From contig NZ_CP140255.1 of assembly GCF_034479615.1 (NCBI RefSeq), positions 2,728,001-2,792,000 of the forward strand: 64,000 bases of DNA. The letters are read 5' to 3'. Positions 41,653 to 53,829 of the stretch are shown piece by piece. Both the position numbers and the translations under genes were made by a program. The notes beneath the pieces are model-generated. The model had not been told where the DNA came from, made no database searches, and saw only the letters and a program-made list of their open reading frames with translations. The DNA is from Vreelandella neptunia. GTDB lineage: Bacteria; Pseudomonadota; Gammaproteobacteria; Pseudomonadales; Halomonadaceae. Each line of letters opens with the position of its first letter. The first letter of the stretch is position 1.

Positions 41653-42258
41653 CTAGCGCATTTGCCTAAACGTTAGGCTCACCCGCGGTTCAACATCTTT
41701 CTTGGTTTTAGGCAGGCTATGTAGCCAGTTTTGCTGTGTATTACCTTGCATAATTAACAGACTGCCGTGTTCTAACGTAAGCGACACACTCTCCCCTGTT
41801 TTTCGATGTTTAAACGAAAATTTCCTCTCGCCGCCTAGGCTCAACGCCCCAATCGCGCCATTCTCAACAAGGTCTTTTTCGGCGTCACTGTGCCAGCTCA
41901 TGCCCTCATCCCCTGAGCTATAAAAATTACCCAGGCACGAATTAAACACCTCCCCGCAGTGGCTCTCCAGCACCTGCTTAATCTCTCTTAAACAATCAGG
42001 CCATACTAACGCGATCTTTGTATATCCTGAGTACGTGTAAGAAACCGGCTTGTCCGCATACCAGGCTATTTTCCTCTTTGTAACGATCTCTTTGCCGTAA
42101 ATAAATGCACGATCATGCTCCCAGCTTAGTTCGCTTAGACACTTATCCAAATACATATCGGCGGTAACGGTATCCATGACTTTGCCGTAGTAGTAGGCCT
42201 CACCATCCCGAGGAAGCAGATTAATCAACTTCATATCGTCGTTTTCAAATAGATCCAT
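41653..42258 (-). CDS. AlkB-like 2-oxoglutarate-dependent dioxygenase
   Basis: Fe(II)/2-oxoglutarate dioxygenase of the AlkB family, likely repairing alkylated bases by oxidative demethylation. The iron facial triad is His123-x-Asp125 (SWHSDAEKD) and His180 (NWLHSLPK); 2-oxoglutarate is held by Arg192 and Arg198 in PRVSLTFR. The ATG at 42258 (201 residues) follows AGAGGGG; a 39-codon upstream extension is rejected. The pattern is nearer the AlkB2/ALKBH2-like group than E. coli AlkB, by impression. Codon use is A/T-richer than in the neighbouring operon. Confidence 0.9.
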   Translation of the reverse strand: MDLFENDDMKLINLLPRDGEAYYYGKVMDTVTADMYLDKCLSELSWEHDRAFIYGKEIVTKRKIAWYADKPVSYTYSGYTKIALVWPDCLREIKQVLESHCGEVFNSCLGNFYSSGDEGMSWHSDAEKDLVENGAIGALSLGGERKFSFKHRKTGESVSLTLEHGSLLIMQGNTQQNWLHSLPKTKKDVEPRVSLTFRQMR

Positions 42259-42535
42259 TTTAACCCCTCTAATGTGCGAAGCCGTAGAAGGCAGTACCCG
42301 CCGCCCGTGGCACAAAGCCAACCCCGACGCATCAAACCATAAGCCTGCACATTCCGGTTTAAAAACATGCAACAAAGCAAGAAACGGGTTTTTTCGTCGC
42401 TATAAAAAGCCAATACTGCATTGCCATGGGGCAAAAAACCAAGCCCCCCCTGACAACTTCCGGTAAAAAGCTAAAAAAAATCAACCATCAATTAGCGGCT
42501 CAAGGCTAAGAGCAAGCTTTGAAAAGGGGTATAAA

Positions 42536-45967: not shown

Positions 45968-46174
45968 CTTGGCCTAATCCTCTTGCCATTCGTACATTAA
46001 GTTGAACCGCCTAGCTTACCATATTCCCGCAGTTACGCCTTTACGCTATACCCTCAAGCCAGTGATACGCTAATGCAAAGGAAAATGCGCTCATTAGCCG
46101 CGCATGCCCCCCTCGTGTATGGTAGTGAGCGTGATTTGGCAATTATGTTCGTTCACCAAGTAGGAGTCATCAAC

Positions 46175-47398
46175 ATGCAGAAGGATCCCAATAAAGGCTA
46201 TATCGCTCTATTAGGCTGGAGTCTCAATGCAATTGAAGCGGCCGAAAATTTTGACCGTCGCTACATTGTCGTTGCACCTGACTGGGCGGAAGAGTATTGC
46301 CAAAAACACGACATTCCCTACGTGCCTTGGAATTTCGAGCGACTCAATGATCGCTCAATGGAAATTGCCGAGACGCTTAAAGAGAAAGGCGTCGATGTCG
46401 CCATTCCGCTTTACGAAGAGACCGTTGAGTGGGCTGGCGCTATCAACTCTGTGCTACTGGATAACCCGCGCCTTTACGGTCAGTCGCTGTTGTTGCGCGA
46501 TAAAGCGTTAATGAAGCGTCGTGCCCAACTAGGCGGCATCCGCGTGGGTATTTTTGAAGAAGCCCACGACAAACAAGATGTCGTGCGCTTTCTCAAGCGC
46601 GTTAACCAGACGCTGCTCAAGCTGGACGGCGACCCCAACGACCCGATTCACCTGAAGGCGTTTGATAAAGCAGGCTGCCTTGGTCACCGCGTCATTCGCA
46701 CCCCAGATGAAGTCGATACCATCCCGGATGAAGAGTTCCCGGTGTTGATGGAGTCGCACCTGGATGGCTGGGAATTTGCCGTGGAAGCGTGGATTCATGA
46801 TGGCAAAATCGCCTTCTTGAACATCTCTGAATACGTGACGCTAGGTTACTCGGTGTTTGTCCCCGCGTCGCCTGAGCTCGAGATTTACCGTGAACAGATC
46901 ACCCAACAGATCGAGAAGCTGATTAAAGCGTTCGATATTGAGTTTGGTTTGATCCACCCAGAATACTTCGTTACCAGCGATGGTGAAATGTACTTTGGCG
47001 AAGTGGCCTACCGTCCGCCCGGCTTCAAGGTATTCGAACTGCTAGAGCGTGTTTACGGCTTCAATGCTTACCAAGCTTCCATGCTGGTATTCGATCCGAA
47101 AGCCACGAAAGAAGAAGTGGCCACGTTTTTCCCGAAAGAAGTGGTCGATGCCGATGGCTTTGCCGGCTGCTTTGGCGTTTACCCACGCCGCCGTGTGGTC
47201 AGCCGCTTGGAAATTCCCGAAGAGACTGAAGATCACCCCTACTTTGAGTCTCATGAGCTAACCTCACCAGTAGAAGAAACCGTTACTAAACGCACCGCGT
47301 TTGGTACTCATTGGGGTCTGGTCTACTTTAAAGGCGAAGACGCGCATACTATTCGCGATCTATTAAAACGCCAAGAAGACCTCGACTTCTATGTATAA
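46175..47398 (+). CDS. Stand-alone ATP-grasp enzyme of unknown substrate
   Basis: A 407-residue ATP-grasp protein, expected to join a carboxylate to an amine or thiol through an acyl phosphate. Visible parts are an N-terminal pre-ATP-grasp domain, LLLRDKALMKRRA and LKAFDKAG (Lys161, nucleotide side), VLMESHLDGWEFAVEAWIHDGK (Glu193), and the metal/substrate segment GLIHPEYFVTSDGEMYFGEVAYRPPG (His261, Glu263, Glu276, Arg280). The ATG at 46175 has AGGAG eight bases before it; the longer frame from 46073 is rejected. It resembles peptide or amino acid ligases (carnosine-synthase type), not a biosynthetic enzyme I can name. The next gene starts 30 bp later. Confidence 0.85.
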   Translation: MQKDPNKGYIALLGWSLNAIEAAENFDRRYIVVAPDWAEEYCQKHDIPYVPWNFERLNDRSMEIAETLKEKGVDVAIPLYEETVEWAGAINSVLLDNPRLYGQSLLLRDKALMKRRAQLGGIRVGIFEEAHDKQDVVRFLKRVNQTLLKLDGDPNDPIHLKAFDKAGCLGHRVIRTPDEVDTIPDEEFPVLMESHLDGWEFAVEAWIHDGKIAFLNISEYVTLGYSVFVPASPELEIYREQITQQIEKLIKAFDIEFGLIHPEYFVTSDGEMYFGEVAYRPPGFKVFELLERVYGFNAYQASMLVFDPKATKEEVATFFPKEVVDADGFAGCFGVYPRRRVVSRLEIPEETEDHPYFESHELTSPVEETVTKRTAFGTHWGLVYFKGEDAHTIRDLLKRQEDLDFYV

Positions 47399-47428
47399 TC
47401 CCCGCTAATGCTGGGATAAGGAGTCACC

Positions 47429-49486
47429 GTGGAGACAAATCAAGTTACGTCTTCTCAAGAAGATAGCAAGCTCGATGGATTATTGAGCCAATTTGATGAC
47501 GCAGTGCGCCTGCTGAACCAGGCGCCCGCCTTCTCGAAACCCGCCAAATTGCCGCGCGTGATGGACACTGCGCGGCGAGTATTGCTTCAGGATGGCGGGT
47601 GTGACGCACTGGAGTCCCGCGCGCAAGCGTTTGAGGACTCTGGTGTGTTTTTGGGCTCCGATTGGGAAACACCCCAATATTTGGTACCGACCCTGACGAC
47701 CTTCTCGCTGAAAAGCGCGGATGCCAATGTGGTCGTCATTGAGGCATTGAGCGAGCTTCGACTGCTTGCTGTCGCTAAAGGCAATTTTGAACACCCGTTG
47801 GTTTCTTCAGAGCATGCACACCACTACCTTACTCAGGTAATGGCGATTAATTTATGGCTGCTGTTCTTGCCACCCAGCGAGGCGGAGCGGGAAACCCAAG
47901 GGCGACTGGCGACTATCCCACGCCAGCTTTTTCAGCATTTAGCTGAACGAATCGGCTATGAGCATATCGTTGATCGCCTGATTGATGAGATTTGGCGCAT
48001 TTTAAAACAGCGCCCTATTCAGGTTGACTCGATCAAACAGATGATCACCCAAATTGCCCTATGTCAGGCCAATCCAGAGATTGATCTTGGCGCTAGTGGC
48101 CAAGGCGCCGACCGGCTGGTCAGCTCGCTTTACGGCCCCACTCAGGCCTGCCGCGAAGATCCTGGCGTGGATATTTATCGCGATCGGTTAGAGCATATGG
48201 ATCAGGCGGCCCTGCAGGCTGAATCTACCGGCTTCGCCCGGGCAATGCACGATACCGGCTTGGTATCGCCGTATCACGCCGTGCTGCTGCGTCACCTACT
48301 CGAAGAAGGTGACCACTTACTCTCCGAGGCGCTGGGTCTTTCTTCTACCGGCCGCGACTGTCTACTCTGCTATCGCGAGCTGGTTCAAGCGCTTATTCGG
48401 GGCGGCGTTTATCCAGCCACCGCACAAGCGGTTTACGGCCTGGCGCTGATGCTTGAGCGCGGTATTCTCTATCAGCCGCCGGTGGCGCCCGCCATGTGGC
48501 GTCAACTTAACCTGCCGCTATCCGAGTGGGCGCAGTCGCGACTCACCCTGTCCTATGGCGACACTGTTTCTCCTCGGGCACGCTTAATTGAAGGCGTGCT
48601 CTGCATGCTGGGATTACCGCTAGGCGTTGGTCAGGGCAACAATCCTACCTGCCAGTCGGCACGTGCACTCTCCATGTGGGCGTACAACGACCCAGACTAT
48701 CTGCTGCAAATGGTGGCGTGGGCAGCCCGAGATGACGAAATCATTATGCATTTTGAAGGCCAAGCCATTTCCTCCATGGCGAGCCTATCAGGTGTGGCGA
48801 CCCAGTTACCCATCGATCTCGACCCGGTTTCGCTGATTGTCGTGCCACACCTGGATCGAATTTATGCCGAAATGGGACGGCGCTGCATTGGCCGTGAAGG
48901 TGACCCTCACCGCTGGGTGAATCCTGAATTTCACGGTTGGTGGTCGGGCCGTGGCTTTCGCATCAATGTCGATGTTGCCACCGGTCAACTTAGCGATGTG
49001 GACGACTTTATTCGCCACTTTTTCGCCTATTATCATCCCTACTACAATGGCAACCAGCCGCTGATTCACCCTCAGCCAGCGGGTATTGCGGTCACTGATA
49101 GCGCGGCGCGTTTTATCGGCTGGCACGCAATCACCATTTTGCGGGCATCCCTCGACCCCTCTGATGTCATGCGGATTTACTTCTATAATCCCAACAATGA
49201 TAGCGGGCAGGATTGGGGCGATGGCGTCATTGTGAGTACATCAGGCAATGGTGAGCGCTTCGGCGAGGCCTCGCTGCCTTTCGATCGCTTTGCATCTCGG
49301 CTGTATATTTATCATTACGATCCTCTTGAGCGCGTTGACATAGCCGACGTCACCAGCGAAGAGGTGGAAAATGTTAAACACTACCTGCACCGTAGCTGGG
49401 GGGCCTCACGCTTACCGCCTACCGAGCTGCAGGCAGATCAAGGCTCCAACTCATCCCTACCCAATACACCCCCAGACGTGGGGTAA
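47429..49486 (+). CDS. Uncharacterised 685-residue protein with papain-like Cys/His/Asn pattern
   Basis: No named family is recognised. The first 390 residues are mainly helical and lack a signal peptide or membrane helix. The C-terminal half has NNPTCQSARALSMWA (Cys408 at the head of a helix), GWHAITILRA (His566) and a strand RIYFYNPNNDSGQDWG (Asn587/589/590). That order and spacing resemble a papain-fold peptidase, amidase or transglutaminase-like enzyme. GTG start with AAGGAG upstream, 30 bp after the ATP-grasp gene. The pair suggests a ligation and hydrolysis system on one substrate, which is inference. A catalytically dead or unrelated fold cannot be excluded. Confidence 0.75.
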   Translation: METNQVTSSQEDSKLDGLLSQFDDAVRLLNQAPAFSKPAKLPRVMDTARRVLLQDGGCDALESRAQAFEDSGVFLGSDWETPQYLVPTLTTFSLKSADANVVVIEALSELRLLAVAKGNFEHPLVSSEHAHHYLTQVMAINLWLLFLPPSEAERETQGRLATIPRQLFQHLAERIGYEHIVDRLIDEIWRILKQRPIQVDSIKQMITQIALCQANPEIDLGASGQGADRLVSSLYGPTQACREDPGVDIYRDRLEHMDQAALQAESTGFARAMHDTGLVSPYHAVLLRHLLEEGDHLLSEALGLSSTGRDCLLCYRELVQALIRGGVYPATAQAVYGLALMLERGILYQPPVAPAMWRQLNLPLSEWAQSRLTLSYGDTVSPRARLIEGVLCMLGLPLGVGQGNNPTCQSARALSMWAYNDPDYLLQMVAWAARDDEIIMHFEGQAISSMASLSGVATQLPIDLDPVSLIVVPHLDRIYAEMGRRCIGREGDPHRWVNPEFHGWWSGRGFRINVDVATGQLSDVDDFIRHFFAYYHPYYNGNQPLIHPQPAGIAVTDSAARFIGWHAITILRASLDPSDVMRIYFYNPNNDSGQDWGDGVIVSTSGNGERFGEASLPFDRFASRLYIYHYDPLERVDIADVTSEEVENVKHYLHRSWGASRLPPTELQADQGSNSSLPNTPPDVG

Positions 49487-50299: not shown

Positions 50300-53200
50300 T
50301 TACGTCGATGCAGGGGGCAGTTGGTTCGCGGACTGCACTTTAACCGCCTCCCCCTGATCAGGGTGTAGCCACACATCCATCTGTTCAAACGCCACGCGTA
50401 CGCCCGCTTCGCGAAACAGCGCATCTACCCGGCAGTTGATTTCATCGGCGGCAAACAGTCGGTCAAGCAGATCGTTGACGAAAATACGCAGCTCAAAATT
50501 GAGGCTGTGCTGCCCATAGCTTAAACAGAAAACCTGCGGTTCTGGATCGGCTAGCACTCGGGGGTTTTCATCCGCCACCTGACGTAATAGCTGATGCACC
50601 TTGGCCATATCGGAGCCGTGGGCCACGCCGTAAGTGAGCACAACGCGGGTGATATTATCCGACAACGACCAGTTGATCAGTTGGTCGGTCACAAAGGTCT
50701 TATTGGGGATAATAATCTCTTTACGGTCGAAATCGGTCACGGTGGTCGCACGGATACGGATACGGCTGACGGTTCCGTGCAAATTGCCAATCGTGATGGT
50801 GTCACCAATGCGAATCGGACGCTCAAACAGGATGATTAAACCGGATATAAAGTTGGCAAAAATTTCCTGCAAGCCAAACCCCAACCCCACACTCAAGGCA
50901 GCGACCAGCCACTGCAGCTTGTCCCAGGAGACGCCCAGCGTCGAAAGCCCCATGACAATCCCCGTACCCACAATGGTGTAGGAGAGCAGCGAGCTAATGG
51001 CATAGGCGCTGCCCTGTTTCAATGACAGCCGGGATAGCACCATCACTTCCAACAGACCGGGTAAGTTGCCCGCCATAATAAAGGTAATAGCGACAATCAG
51101 CAGAGCAGCAAAGACATCGGAGATCGATAGAGCGTTATCGACCAGATCCCCTTCTTGCGCCTCCCACAATGACACGTTGTCCAAATAGCCGAGCACCGAG
51201 AGCAAGTCTGACCAGACCAAATAAAGCAGCGCACTGAAGCCAATCAACACAATCAACTTGGAAAGCCGCAGCGACTGGCTATTGATCTGGGCCATATCAA
51301 GCGGAGGCTCCTCCACGACTTCGAGGCCACCTTCCGCGCCCTCTTGCACCTGAGCGCGCCGGCGCGCCAGCGCACGGCGATAAGCAAGCCGCCGTGCGGC
51401 TACCGCAAGACTTCTTACCAAAGAGGCTTCTACCACGACCCATAGCCCCAGCAAGTAAAGGGTAATCGCGAACCGCCCCACTAAACGTAACGCGGTGTAT
51501 TCGTAACCCCAGACCACTAATCCCAGTAGGATCAGCGGCACCGAGGCCATCGCCAGCCCCAACAGCAAGCGAAACAGGTGCACGCCAAAAATGGGAATAT
51601 GCGCCAGTATCAGTTGCGCCAACCACCAGCTCATCGCTATCAAGCCAAACGCAAATAGCCCCAAGGCGACAGGGCGCATCGCTAGCGGCGTTTCCATCTC
51701 TCCGGACATCGCCGCAATGGCAATGACTGGCACCAAGGCGATGCCTAGCCCGCCTAACAGTTGGCGTAACCGGGCGTTGTACTGTGGCGACCAGGTAAAG
51801 TGGCGCTCGGCCACTCCATCGGCGACCAGTAGTCTGCGCCCCCAAGCGACGACGGCCCAGCTTAAGGCCAATTGAAGCAGCGCCGGGGCAACGCTATTAG
51901 CCAAGGAGCCAGCCGCCCCCTGCAGCCCAACGCCAATACCGGCTACTGCCAACGGGCCCGAGAGCGCCAGCAGCGCATTCAGCAGCACCGCCCTGGGTGT
52001 GTGCAGCTGGGTATCGCTCTTTAACCGACCTATCTGCGAATGCAGCGTGGCCAAGCGGGCCTTGATTTTGCGACGCAATCCCATTAGCACCAGACTCAAC
52101 ACCACTAGCGGGGCGCCTCTAAGCACTTCCCAGGAGAACCCTTGCCAGCGGGTGGGCAAAATGGCTCGCCACTCTCCTTCTTGCCATTCTAGCCGCAGGT
52201 TGCGCGGTAATTGGCGTACCCAATTTAGATCCAATGGCCGGCTGTTGGCGACCCAAAACAGCTGCTCATCGATGGTTTTGCGTAACTCAATAGTCGTCGA
52301 TACCAACTGCTGCTGGTTGAGCTGCAGCTCAATCGCCGCACTTAATAAACTGCCGTAAGACTGCTCCAACTGCTCGACCAGTTCACGACGGGATTGATAA
52401 AGCTGCGAAAGTGAATCTACCAATCCCGGGGTCGCCTCAATGCCCTCCTCAGCCAGCCGCGTGGCGGCATATTGTTCGCTTTGGCGCAGCTGATCACGCT
52501 GGCGAACTAAATCAAACTGTTTTAGGCGCAGGTCGGCAATTTCGTCCTGCAAATTTCGTGGGGCCGCCAAGGAAGGTAGTGACTTGCGCTGTTCGCGCAG
52601 AATACGCGACAGCAGTTGGCTGCCACGGATAGCCTCAATTTGCTCATTAAGACTACGCTGTAGCTGACGCACGTTCTCCAACTGCCGCTGGGCTTCAATG
52701 TTTTCCCGCACCACCGTGTTAGCACGGTCAGTTGCCCGCAGCAGCTCCAGGCTAAGTGTCTGATTGGTTTGCTGCGCTTGCACCACCACCGGATGCCCCG
52801 CAGCGATTAACGGATTATCCCTGGCGGCATCCGCAATGGCTTGTTCAGAGGCTAACCGACGCTGCCGATCAATCACCCCTTGCAGCATCGTTAGCTGCTG
52901 CTCTTGATAATCGATCTGCACCATCAGCGCATCGCGACGCTCCTGGGCTAATTCGCGCAGGCGGCTGTTAGCGCTTAGTTCGCGCTGATAAAAGCTCACT
53001 TCGCGTTCGGCCAGCGCCCGCTCAAGGCGTAATTGGATCAGCCGCGCATCGCTCAAGGCAGAAAGTTGACGATCCGCCAGCAAAGCCTCGCGCTCATCGT
53101 GCTGTCGGCGTAAACTCTCCGCACGTTGGAGGGTTTCCGCGATAGACTGCTGGGCCCGCTCTGGGAGTGTTTGGGCAGCCAACAGCTGCGAGTTCACTTC

Positions 53201-53665
53201 CGCCAGTTGGCTTTGCAACTGCTGTAGCTCGACCACCGCGTTGGTTTGCAACGCTTCCAGCTCATCGAGGGGACGGTCGCTCAAGTCGGCCACCGTCAGC
53301 TGCTGCGAAGCTTCTTCCGCTTCGCTCAAGTCGCGCTGTAGACGAGCTAGTATTTCAGGGGCTTGTTCTACCCGGGTGTCTAGTGCAGCAAGACGCTCTT
53401 CCACAGAGGCTAGCCGTTCATAAGCTTCGATGGCTGCTTCCAGAGCCTCTTTATCGCTGGCCTGCTGGGCGGTCAAGGGCTCCTCAAGGGCTTCTAACTG
53501 AGCAAGCCTTGATGCCAGTTCGGCCTGTTCGGGTACCCGTTCAAGCATATTCGACTGAAGCGCAGCGTGAGCTGGATTAATAGCAGCACTGCTAATGACG
53601 AGCAGTAGGAACAAACAGGTTATACTCCACTTACAGGCGCATCTCACCACGTTACGTATCAACAC
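50300..53665 (-). CDS. mscK: MscK-type mechanosensitive channel
   Basis: Large inner-membrane channel of the MscS superfamily. A signal peptide (LFLLLVISSAAINPAHA) leads a periplasmic coiled-coil region (to about residue 480), then about eleven hydrophobic helices and a C-terminal MscS core (GLGFGLQEIFANFISGLIILFERPIRIGD) with beta and C-terminal domains. Opening under hypo-osmotic shock is expected, apt for a halophile. The frame opens at 53797, but a GTG at 53665 preceded by GCGAGG gives the signal peptide and 1121 residues, equal to E. coli MscK. It diverges from pldA. Confidence 0.93.
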   Translation of the reverse strand: MLIRNVVRCACKWSITCLFLLLVISSAAINPAHAALQSNMLERVPEQAELASRLAQLEALEEPLTAQQASDKEALEAAIEAYERLASVEERLAALDTRVEQAPEILARLQRDLSEAEEASQQLTVADLSDRPLDELEALQTNAVVELQQLQSQLAEVNSQLLAAQTLPERAQQSIAETLQRAESLRRQHDEREALLADRQLSALSDARLIQLRLERALAEREVSFYQRELSANSRLRELAQERRDALMVQIDYQEQQLTMLQGVIDRQRRLASEQAIADAARDNPLIAAGHPVVVQAQQTNQTLSLELLRATDRANTVVRENIEAQRQLENVRQLQRSLNEQIEAIRGSQLLSRILREQRKSLPSLAAPRNLQDEIADLRLKQFDLVRQRDQLRQSEQYAATRLAEEGIEATPGLVDSLSQLYQSRRELVEQLEQSYGSLLSAAIELQLNQQQLVSTTIELRKTIDEQLFWVANSRPLDLNWVRQLPRNLRLEWQEGEWRAILPTRWQGFSWEVLRGAPLVVLSLVLMGLRRKIKARLATLHSQIGRLKSDTQLHTPRAVLLNALLALSGPLAVAGIGVGLQGAAGSLANSVAPALLQLALSWAVVAWGRRLLVADGVAERHFTWSPQYNARLRQLLGGLGIALVPVIAIAAMSGEMETPLAMRPVALGLFAFGLIAMSWWLAQLILAHIPIFGVHLFRLLLGLAMASVPLILLGLVVWGYEYTALRLVGRFAITLYLLGLWVVVEASLVRSLAVAARRLAYRRALARRRAQVQEGAEGGLEVVEEPPLDMAQINSQSLRLSKLIVLIGFSALLYLVWSDLLSVLGYLDNVSLWEAQEGDLVDNALSISDVFAALLIVAITFIMAGNLPGLLEVMVLSRLSLKQGSAYAISSLLSYTIVGTGIVMGLSTLGVSWDKLQWLVAALSVGLGFGLQEIFANFISGLIILFERPIRIGDTITIGNLHGTVSRIRIRATTVTDFDRKEIIIPNKTFVTDQLINWSLSDNITRVVLTYGVAHGSDMAKVHQLLRQVADENPRVLADPEPQVFCLSYGQHSLNFELRIFVNDLLDRLFAADEINCRVDALFREAGVRVAFEQMDVWLHPDQGEAVKVQSANQLPPAST

Positions 53666-53829
53666 GTTACTTAGGGCCTCGCTGACATCAAATGCTCCGC
53701 AGAGACGGAGAATGAGGTTATTGTCAGGCGTTCTGATGGTCAGCGCAATCAGAGGTGTTGACTTCCGCAGGCGGCGTGATAGAAACAAGCTTGGCATTTG
53801 CCTATTCCTTCATTTTGCGAGTCACCTTG

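Follow-up and report, generated by a model that had tools for sequence, protein, structure and literature searches.

The window analyzed here is a 64,000-nucleotide stretch of the Vreelandella neptunia genome, a single contig of 4.95 Mb whose nearest named relatives, among the matches listed, belong to Halomonas and Vreelandella. It carries two adjacent genes on the forward strand, one encoding an ATP-grasp ligase of 407 residues (46175–47398) and the other a 685-residue protein of an unnamed family (47429–49486), referred to below as papain-like after its predicted active site. Because the two genes are present or absent together in the genomes compared, they suggest an undescribed two-enzyme system of salt-adapted bacteria. 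An initial annotation, made from the letters of the window, had proposed that the pair makes and removes an amide. The observation behind that proposal is sound, the pairing is stronger than its author could know, and the idea of a shared bond is plausible.

The pairing was examined at three taxonomic depths. In the host's own family, where co-occurrence was counted at an expectation value (E) of 1e-20 or better, 81 sampled genomes comprised 47 with both genes, 34 with neither and 0 with only one. The pair is adjacent in 45 of the 47 positive genomes, and a ligase lies within 500 bp of 46 of their 57 papain-like genes, counting the interrupted copy of one genome (G650). Among 229 genomes sampled from the class, the 6 that hold the 685-residue gene are the same 6 that hold a close ligase (at least 777 bits, the next best match reaching 77.7), and neither close homologue was found alone. 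The phylum sample of 397 genomes contains the papain-like gene in 12, after a weak match (G561, E 0.0046) was dropped from an original 13; the ligase, looked for in these 12, is present in every one.

Linkage was followed at the level of individual loci. An intact ligase stands directly upstream, on the same strand, in 71 of 80 named loci, with gaps ranging from −11 to 245 bp. One further locus is cut by a contig end and 8 have no intact local ligase, although 4 of these 8 (L020, L021, L022 and L030) retain 3′ ligase remnants and all 8 genomes concerned possess another full-length ligase. Genera g199, g407 and g410 each include sampled members with the adjacent pair and others with neither gene, a both-or-neither pattern indicating that acquisition or loss of the pair as one unit probably occurred on more than one occasion. 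The linkage proposed in the initial annotation is thus borne out in other genomes.

Sequence trees add a further aspect to this association. FastTree reconstructions drew on 47 papain-like sequences out of 103 and on 42 ligases out of 100; each set split into a main and a second type, with a few sequences outside both (support 100 for the second-type ligases and 92 for the second-type papain-like proteins); in genomes outside the trees, types were assigned by identity alone. Two genomes (G693 and G715) hold a type 1 papain-like gene and only a type 2 ligase, located elsewhere, while G653, G671, G683, G694, G695, G705 and G708 hold both papain-like types and only a type 1 ligase. The window's genome, with both ligase types and one papain-like gene, is an intermediate state. 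This mixing of types suggests, on sequence grounds, that either ligase can supply either partner. The second ligase of the host genome (L155:8221–9528, at about 2184220–2185527 of G000:C1) is 81% identical and has an N-terminal extension. It lies directly upstream of a gene for a BCCT-type betaine/carnitine/choline transporter; a link between ligase and transporter was rejected, since other second-type ligase loci lack the transporter.

Some papain-like copies were also seen apart from a ligase. Two genomes of one genus (L184:8279–12868 and L185:8025–13841) carry an extra copy without an adjacent ligase. In its vicinity are an AstE/AspA-like gene and one resembling GCS2, for which the L184 copy matched the Pfam family at E 4e-6. 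Another genome (G171) has a second papain-like gene (L160:7899–9890) with no ligase within approximately 8 kb and only one ligase in the genome.

The distribution of the pair was compared with that of ectoine synthase, which is a stand-in for salt adaptation; the test links the pair to ectoine itself in no way. In the phylum sample, each of the 12 positive genomes has ectoine synthase, versus 62 of 397 overall (Fisher p 8e-11); counted by genus, 7 of 7 positive genera have it, versus 36 of 222 (p 1.7e-6). From this association, we infer that the pair is tied to saline life, that is, to a process useful at high salt.

The first gene had been described as encoding a complete ATP-grasp enzyme, which is fair but understates its divergence. 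As a single sequence, the protein scores 25.3 bits against Pfam ATP-grasp_4, under the curated cut-off of 27, and its nearest counterpart of solved structure is the L-amino acid ligase 4wd3 (RizA), with a partial match (E 5e-5). The match to the ATP-grasp superfamily comes from a 22-row profile, 4 rows of which are distant ATP-grasp proteins: against the PDB, 4wd3 (E 4.4e-38) and 3vot (E 4.2e-33) head the results, with BacD after them (E 1.1e-12). Candidate ATP- and metal-binding residues in ATP-grasp enzymes are a Lys, a Glu pair and the motif E-x-[NA]-x-R, in which Asn is the more usual of the two alternatives. Residues K110, K161, E193, E263, E276, A278 and R280 are invariant in the 22 rows, the last three forming the conserved motif E276-x-A-x-R280. 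Since E-x-A-x-R is also present in 4wd3, the absence of Asn from the window ligase is no sign of decay. Taken together, these similarities place the protein, by sequence, in the L-amino acid ligase branch, where it would presumably form an amide.

The ligase is also unusually conserved over long distances. The window copy shares 77% identity with that of G242, a genome related to the host only at the phylum level and with an RpoB identity of 59.5%; the corresponding values are 83% and 74.6% for G398, and 79.5% and 72.6% for G171. Gene transfer or strong constraint could underlie this conservation.

The second protein matched no family recognized in the initial annotation, and wider searches led to the same result. 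At E 1 or better, no family was found in Pfam, NCBIfam or PADLOC; PHROGs (best E 0.29) and PDB sequences (best E 0.78) gave nothing significant. Pfam searches with the 22 rows of a family alignment (A2) returned weak matches only, to DUF2891 in 2 of 22 rows (best E 0.065) and to DUF4274 in 1 of 22 (E 0.27), and the profile of this alignment matched nothing significant in the PDB. Neither the window protein nor any of the 22 rows matched PF00112 (peptidase family C1) or PF00648 (C2), and the PADLOC anti-phage defense models yielded 0 families at E 1 or better for the ligase as well as for the 685-residue protein. The family is nevertheless sizeable and sharply bounded. At least 586 relatives were confirmed in a contig scan, and across 398 genomes the family profile scores members above 1000 bits, with a sharp drop to 11 bits for the next best match. 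A search of viral contigs gave 76 pattern matches and no relative, a phage collection contained no relative, and a plasmid collection gave one match, on a 1.83-Mb Halomonas replicon.

Invariance was assessed in 104 sequences, namely the window protein and 103 distinct relatives with a lowest identity of 42%. Among 98 invariant positions, 66 fall within residues 374–665. They include Gln402 (codon at 48632–48634), Cys408 (48650–48652), His566 (49124–49126), Asn587 (49187–49189) and Asn589 (49193–49195), all unchanged in 104 of 104 rows. Along with the number of relatives, this constancy takes the observation well past coincidence. The positions named in the initial annotation for Cys408, His566, Asn587 and Asn589 were accordingly found in the sequence, and the residues proved constant across homologues. 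Cys408, the proposed nucleophile, is the only invariant Cys. His494, His536 and His629 are likewise invariant, so the constancy of His566 is not telling by itself.

Order and spacing are more informative. The reading frame, from GTG to stop, would begin with a mostly helical stretch of about 370 residues, and a papain-like catalytic region (about 374–665) would come after it. In a model of this domain, Gln402 lies six residues before Cys408, Cys408 directly precedes a predicted helix, His566 directly precedes a predicted strand, and Asn587 directly follows the next predicted strand; Asn589 is an alternative third catalytic residue. This is the arrangement of papain, in which the Gln of the oxyanion hole stands six residues before the Cys. 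The same Gln–Cys spacing of six was observed in five bacterial C1 proteins, where the search pattern allowed 5–7. A second-look structural alignment of the domain against 395 chains, with 58 at Z 2 or above and none as high as Z 5, placed calpain in rows 1–16 (Z 4.0–4.7) and bleomycin hydrolase in row 17 (Z 3.3). With the full-length model, the same approach returned mostly helical proteins, mainly for residues 1–180, with a best Z of 6.2. Residue invariance, order and spacing together make a papain-type active site likely in the 685-residue protein.

These observations lead to the proposal that the pair forms a self-contained cytosolic module in which a ligase and a Cys-dependent hydrolase or transferase act on one product, in a process tied to saline life; in our estimate, this has an even chance of being right. 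The ATP-grasp protein would activate a carboxylate with ATP and join it to an amine, as the nearest L-amino acid ligases do. The 685-residue protein would act as a papain-type thiol enzyme through Cys408, His566 and Asn587, with Gln402 at the oxyanion hole, and would cleave the ligase product or transfer its acyl part, while the long helical N-terminal region probably recognizes the substrate or a partner. Thiol catalysis is presumed from the invariant residues. A cytosolic location for both proteins seems likely from a hydropathy scan, in which neither protein showed a hydrophobic stretch of transmembrane strength or a signal-like N-terminus. That both enzymes act on one product, with the amide formed by the ligase and processed by the thiol enzyme, would be the most economical reading. 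The strict two-way dependence fits a cycle or a two-step route alike, and the excess of papain-like copies over ligases in several genomes fits one product serving several thiol enzymes. A more elaborate version, advanced tentatively and considered less likely than not, is an undescribed amide-modification cycle of salt-adapted proteobacteria. In it, the ligase would attach a peptide or single amino acid to some metabolite or protein; a new papain-type family with a large helical region for recognition, and with several members per ligase, would remove or transfer the attached group, the balance being set by salinity.

Several findings weigh against this proposal. The 12 positive genomes of the phylum sample represent five families, and their relatedness inflates the ectoine p values; moreover, all nine genomes of the host's family in that sample have ectoine synthase, with or without the pair. 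Copy numbers are not strictly matched, since the 47 positive family genomes hold 57 papain-like and 52 ligase genes, and some have unequal copies, as in G675 with 3 papain-like genes and 1 ligase. In G650 (C10:753415–754598), the only ligase copy consists of two slightly overlapping pieces in different frames beside the papain-like gene, which may be an assembly error or decay; the copy count scores one of these pieces as a ligase and omits the other. The structural evidence is also limited. The full-length AlphaFold2 model, built with 44 sequences (the window protein and 43 relatives at 74–91% identity), is poor, with a predicted local distance difference test (pLDDT) of 62.0 and a predicted template modeling score (pTM) of 0.39. 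The catalytic-domain model, built with 81 sequences, is poor as well (pLDDT 51.7, pTM 0.54). Foldseek gave no match to the latter at E 0.001 or better, the top match being calpain at E 0.95. In the second look, the 16 calpain rows come from one family and count as approximately one match, staphopain and cathepsins are mixed with unrelated chains from row 18 onward, and the best Z of 4.7 falls in the range below 8 that can reflect common arrangements. Finally, an hhalign comparison of the catalytic domain with the five bacterial C1 proteins, obtained from 5 of 165 genomes, reached E 0.18 over an alignment of 10 columns, a score surpassed by 10 of 40 column-shuffled controls. Given the weak structural matches and the negative profile comparison, a papain-type active site and a probable papain-like core are stated here, and no peptidase family is assigned. 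The papain fold suggested by the initial annotation is indicated by motif spacing and weak structural matches, while the poor models and the C1 comparison fail to support it.

The same structural results feed a rival explanation, namely that the 685-residue protein is not papain-like and that Cys408 belongs to another Cys-dependent fold, such as a transglutaminase, or serves as a metal-binding or structural residue. Low-confidence models, the lack of a Foldseek match at E 0.001 or better, the negative profile comparison and the missing Pfam match all agree with it. It would nonetheless have to explain why Gln six before Cys, His before a strand and Asn after a strand follow in papain order, and why papain-superfamily chains head the structural match list, and we regard it as quite improbable. 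A comparably low probability is given to a regulatory pair without shared chemistry, in which the second protein would be a protease or scaffold controlling the ligase. In its favor, shared chemistry does not follow from co-occurrence and linkage by themselves; however, with types judged by identity, some genomes keep type 1 papain-like genes when their only ligase is of type 2, others have type 2 genes when their only ligase is of type 1, and papain-like copies outnumbering ligases in several genomes suit a shared product more than a dedicated regulator.

Two specific versions of the one-product module differ in what the product would be. In one, considered unlikely, the proteins would be writer and eraser of a peptide-like tail. 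Amino acids attached by the ligase to a small carrier or a protein would be taken off again by the papain-like enzyme, much as RimK, the enzyme that appends glutamates to ribosomal protein S6, works with a peptidase partner. The strict interdependence of the two genes in the genomes sampled supports this version, and several papain-like copies per ligase, as in G675, suit one writer with several erasers. Greater conservation of the ligase than of RpoB between the two most distant genomes compared would be expected of a protein with multiple partners, although gene transfer could also account for it. The closest solved ligases, on the other hand, are L-amino acid ligases, which act on free amino acids, and in the regions compared around members of the pair (11, plus 12 further or repeated, with open reading frames (ORFs) of at least 80 residues) no gene for a target protein or a tail consistently accompanies it. 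Loci combining an ATP-grasp protein with a peptidase do exist, one of them with an osmotic phenotype (PMC12239564). The other version, possible but doubtful, is a two-step synthesis of a small molecule, in which the papain-like enzyme would transfer or trim a dipeptide-like product, possibly a compatible solute or a thiol. Here the kinship with L-amino acid ligases and the presence of ectoine synthase in 12 of 12 positive genomes are favorable, and papain-fold acyltransferases such as BtrH are known (PMC10318531). No transporter, oxidase or carrier gene, however, is common beside the pair in the regions compared, and the BCCT transporter beside the host's second ligase does not recur beside other second-type ligases.

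Regarding the locus itself, the two genes and their 30 bp gap are present as first annotated, as are the AGGAG-type ribosome-binding sites: AGGAG at 46162–46166, 8 bp before the ATG of the ligase gene, and AAGGAG at 47418–47423, 5 bp before the GTG of the papain-like gene. A longer in-frame ORF for the ligase opens at 46073 in the ORF list; the start at 46175 is preferred because of the AGGAG and because most intact relatives align in tblastn from the very first residue of the 407-residue reading. Both proteins are acidic, with predicted isoelectric points of 4.8 and 5.1. Scans for promoters and terminators gave site numbers no higher than those in shuffled sequence.

Across the 11 and 12 regions, the pair has no further constant companion, and orientation varies, being same-strand, divergent or convergent. 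Five window genes were tracked across the 80 named loci. tlyA lies within 300 bp in 47 loci, at 300–2000 bp in 16 and farther away in 7, and was not found in 10, 2 of which have short flanks. With such variable distances, a role for tlyA was rejected; it is only a downstream neighbor, as the initial annotation had allowed, and the ribosomal target it might have hinted at finds no link in the neighborhoods examined. A role for the DUF1820 and SH3 proteins was also rejected, as it is only in the closer relatives, out of the 80 loci, that they adjoin the pair. Elsewhere in the window, on the reverse strand, a 1165-residue ORF (50300–53797), convergent with tlyA, resembles by eye an MscK-like large mechanosensitive channel, and another (41653–42375) looks, also by eye, like an AlkB-type 2-oxoglutarate oxygenase. 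Separately, bacterial ORFs of about 700–950 residues (L188–L191) were seen to combine a C1-type peptidase region with a C-terminal region bearing a lipase-like GHSAG motif.

A family undescribed in the libraries searched thereby gains an obligate partner and, with it, a testable hypothesis. Within the samples, the association is so strict that deletions of one gene or the other are predicted to have related effects. Halomonas species are genetically tractable and used in industry, which makes the comparison of deletion mutants a practical way of finding the substrate. If the product were a compatible solute or a salt-dependent protein tag, the pair would represent a further way of adapting to salt, in addition to ectoine and betaine.

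No description of this gene pair was found in the open-access literature searched, and the known systems closest to it each share part of its features. The L-amino acid ligases 4wd3, 3vot (BL00235) and 3vmm (BacD) are the closest solved ATP-grasp proteins, and 4wd3 shares the E-x-A-x-R motif; the similarity is low, however, with a partial single-sequence match and a window protein under the Pfam cut-off. Families C1 and C2 (calpain, bleomycin hydrolase) share the order Q-x5-C, H, N and a weak structural resemblance to the domain model, whereas the window protein has no Pfam or profile match to them (for C2, Pfam only), carries about 370 helical residues in front and has, in the samples, an obligate ATP-grasp partner. 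The Anbu locus is a conserved set of ATP-grasp, transglutaminase-like (thiol-type) and hydrolase genes, but no proteasome-like gene was seen beside the window pair. In glutathionylspermidine synthetase/amidase and trypanothione synthetase, the amide formed by an ATP-grasp ligase is cleaved again by a Cys amidase paired with it; these enzymes are single fused proteins with a CHAP amidase, while the window has two genes, a longer protein and papain-type spacing.

Butirosin synthesis offers another parallel, with BtrJ as its ATP-grasp ligase and BtrH acting downstream. An ATP-grasp ligase and a papain-fold enzyme, BtrH being the latter (PMC10318531), thus serve one pathway. That pathway uses an acyl carrier protein and lies in an antibiotic cluster, and no such cluster appears in the regions compared around the pair. 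RimK/RimB and RloC/RloA each unite a cytosolic ATP-grasp protein and a retropepsin-like peptidase in one operon, and mutants without the three RloA peptidases fail at low osmolarity (PMC12239564). Compared by description rather than by sequence, the RimB and RloA peptidases are aspartic and RloA is secreted, whereas the partner in the window is a predicted thiol enzyme; in their logic of keeping an ATP-grasp protein and a peptidase together, RimK/RimB and RloC/RloA are the nearest precedents for the pair.

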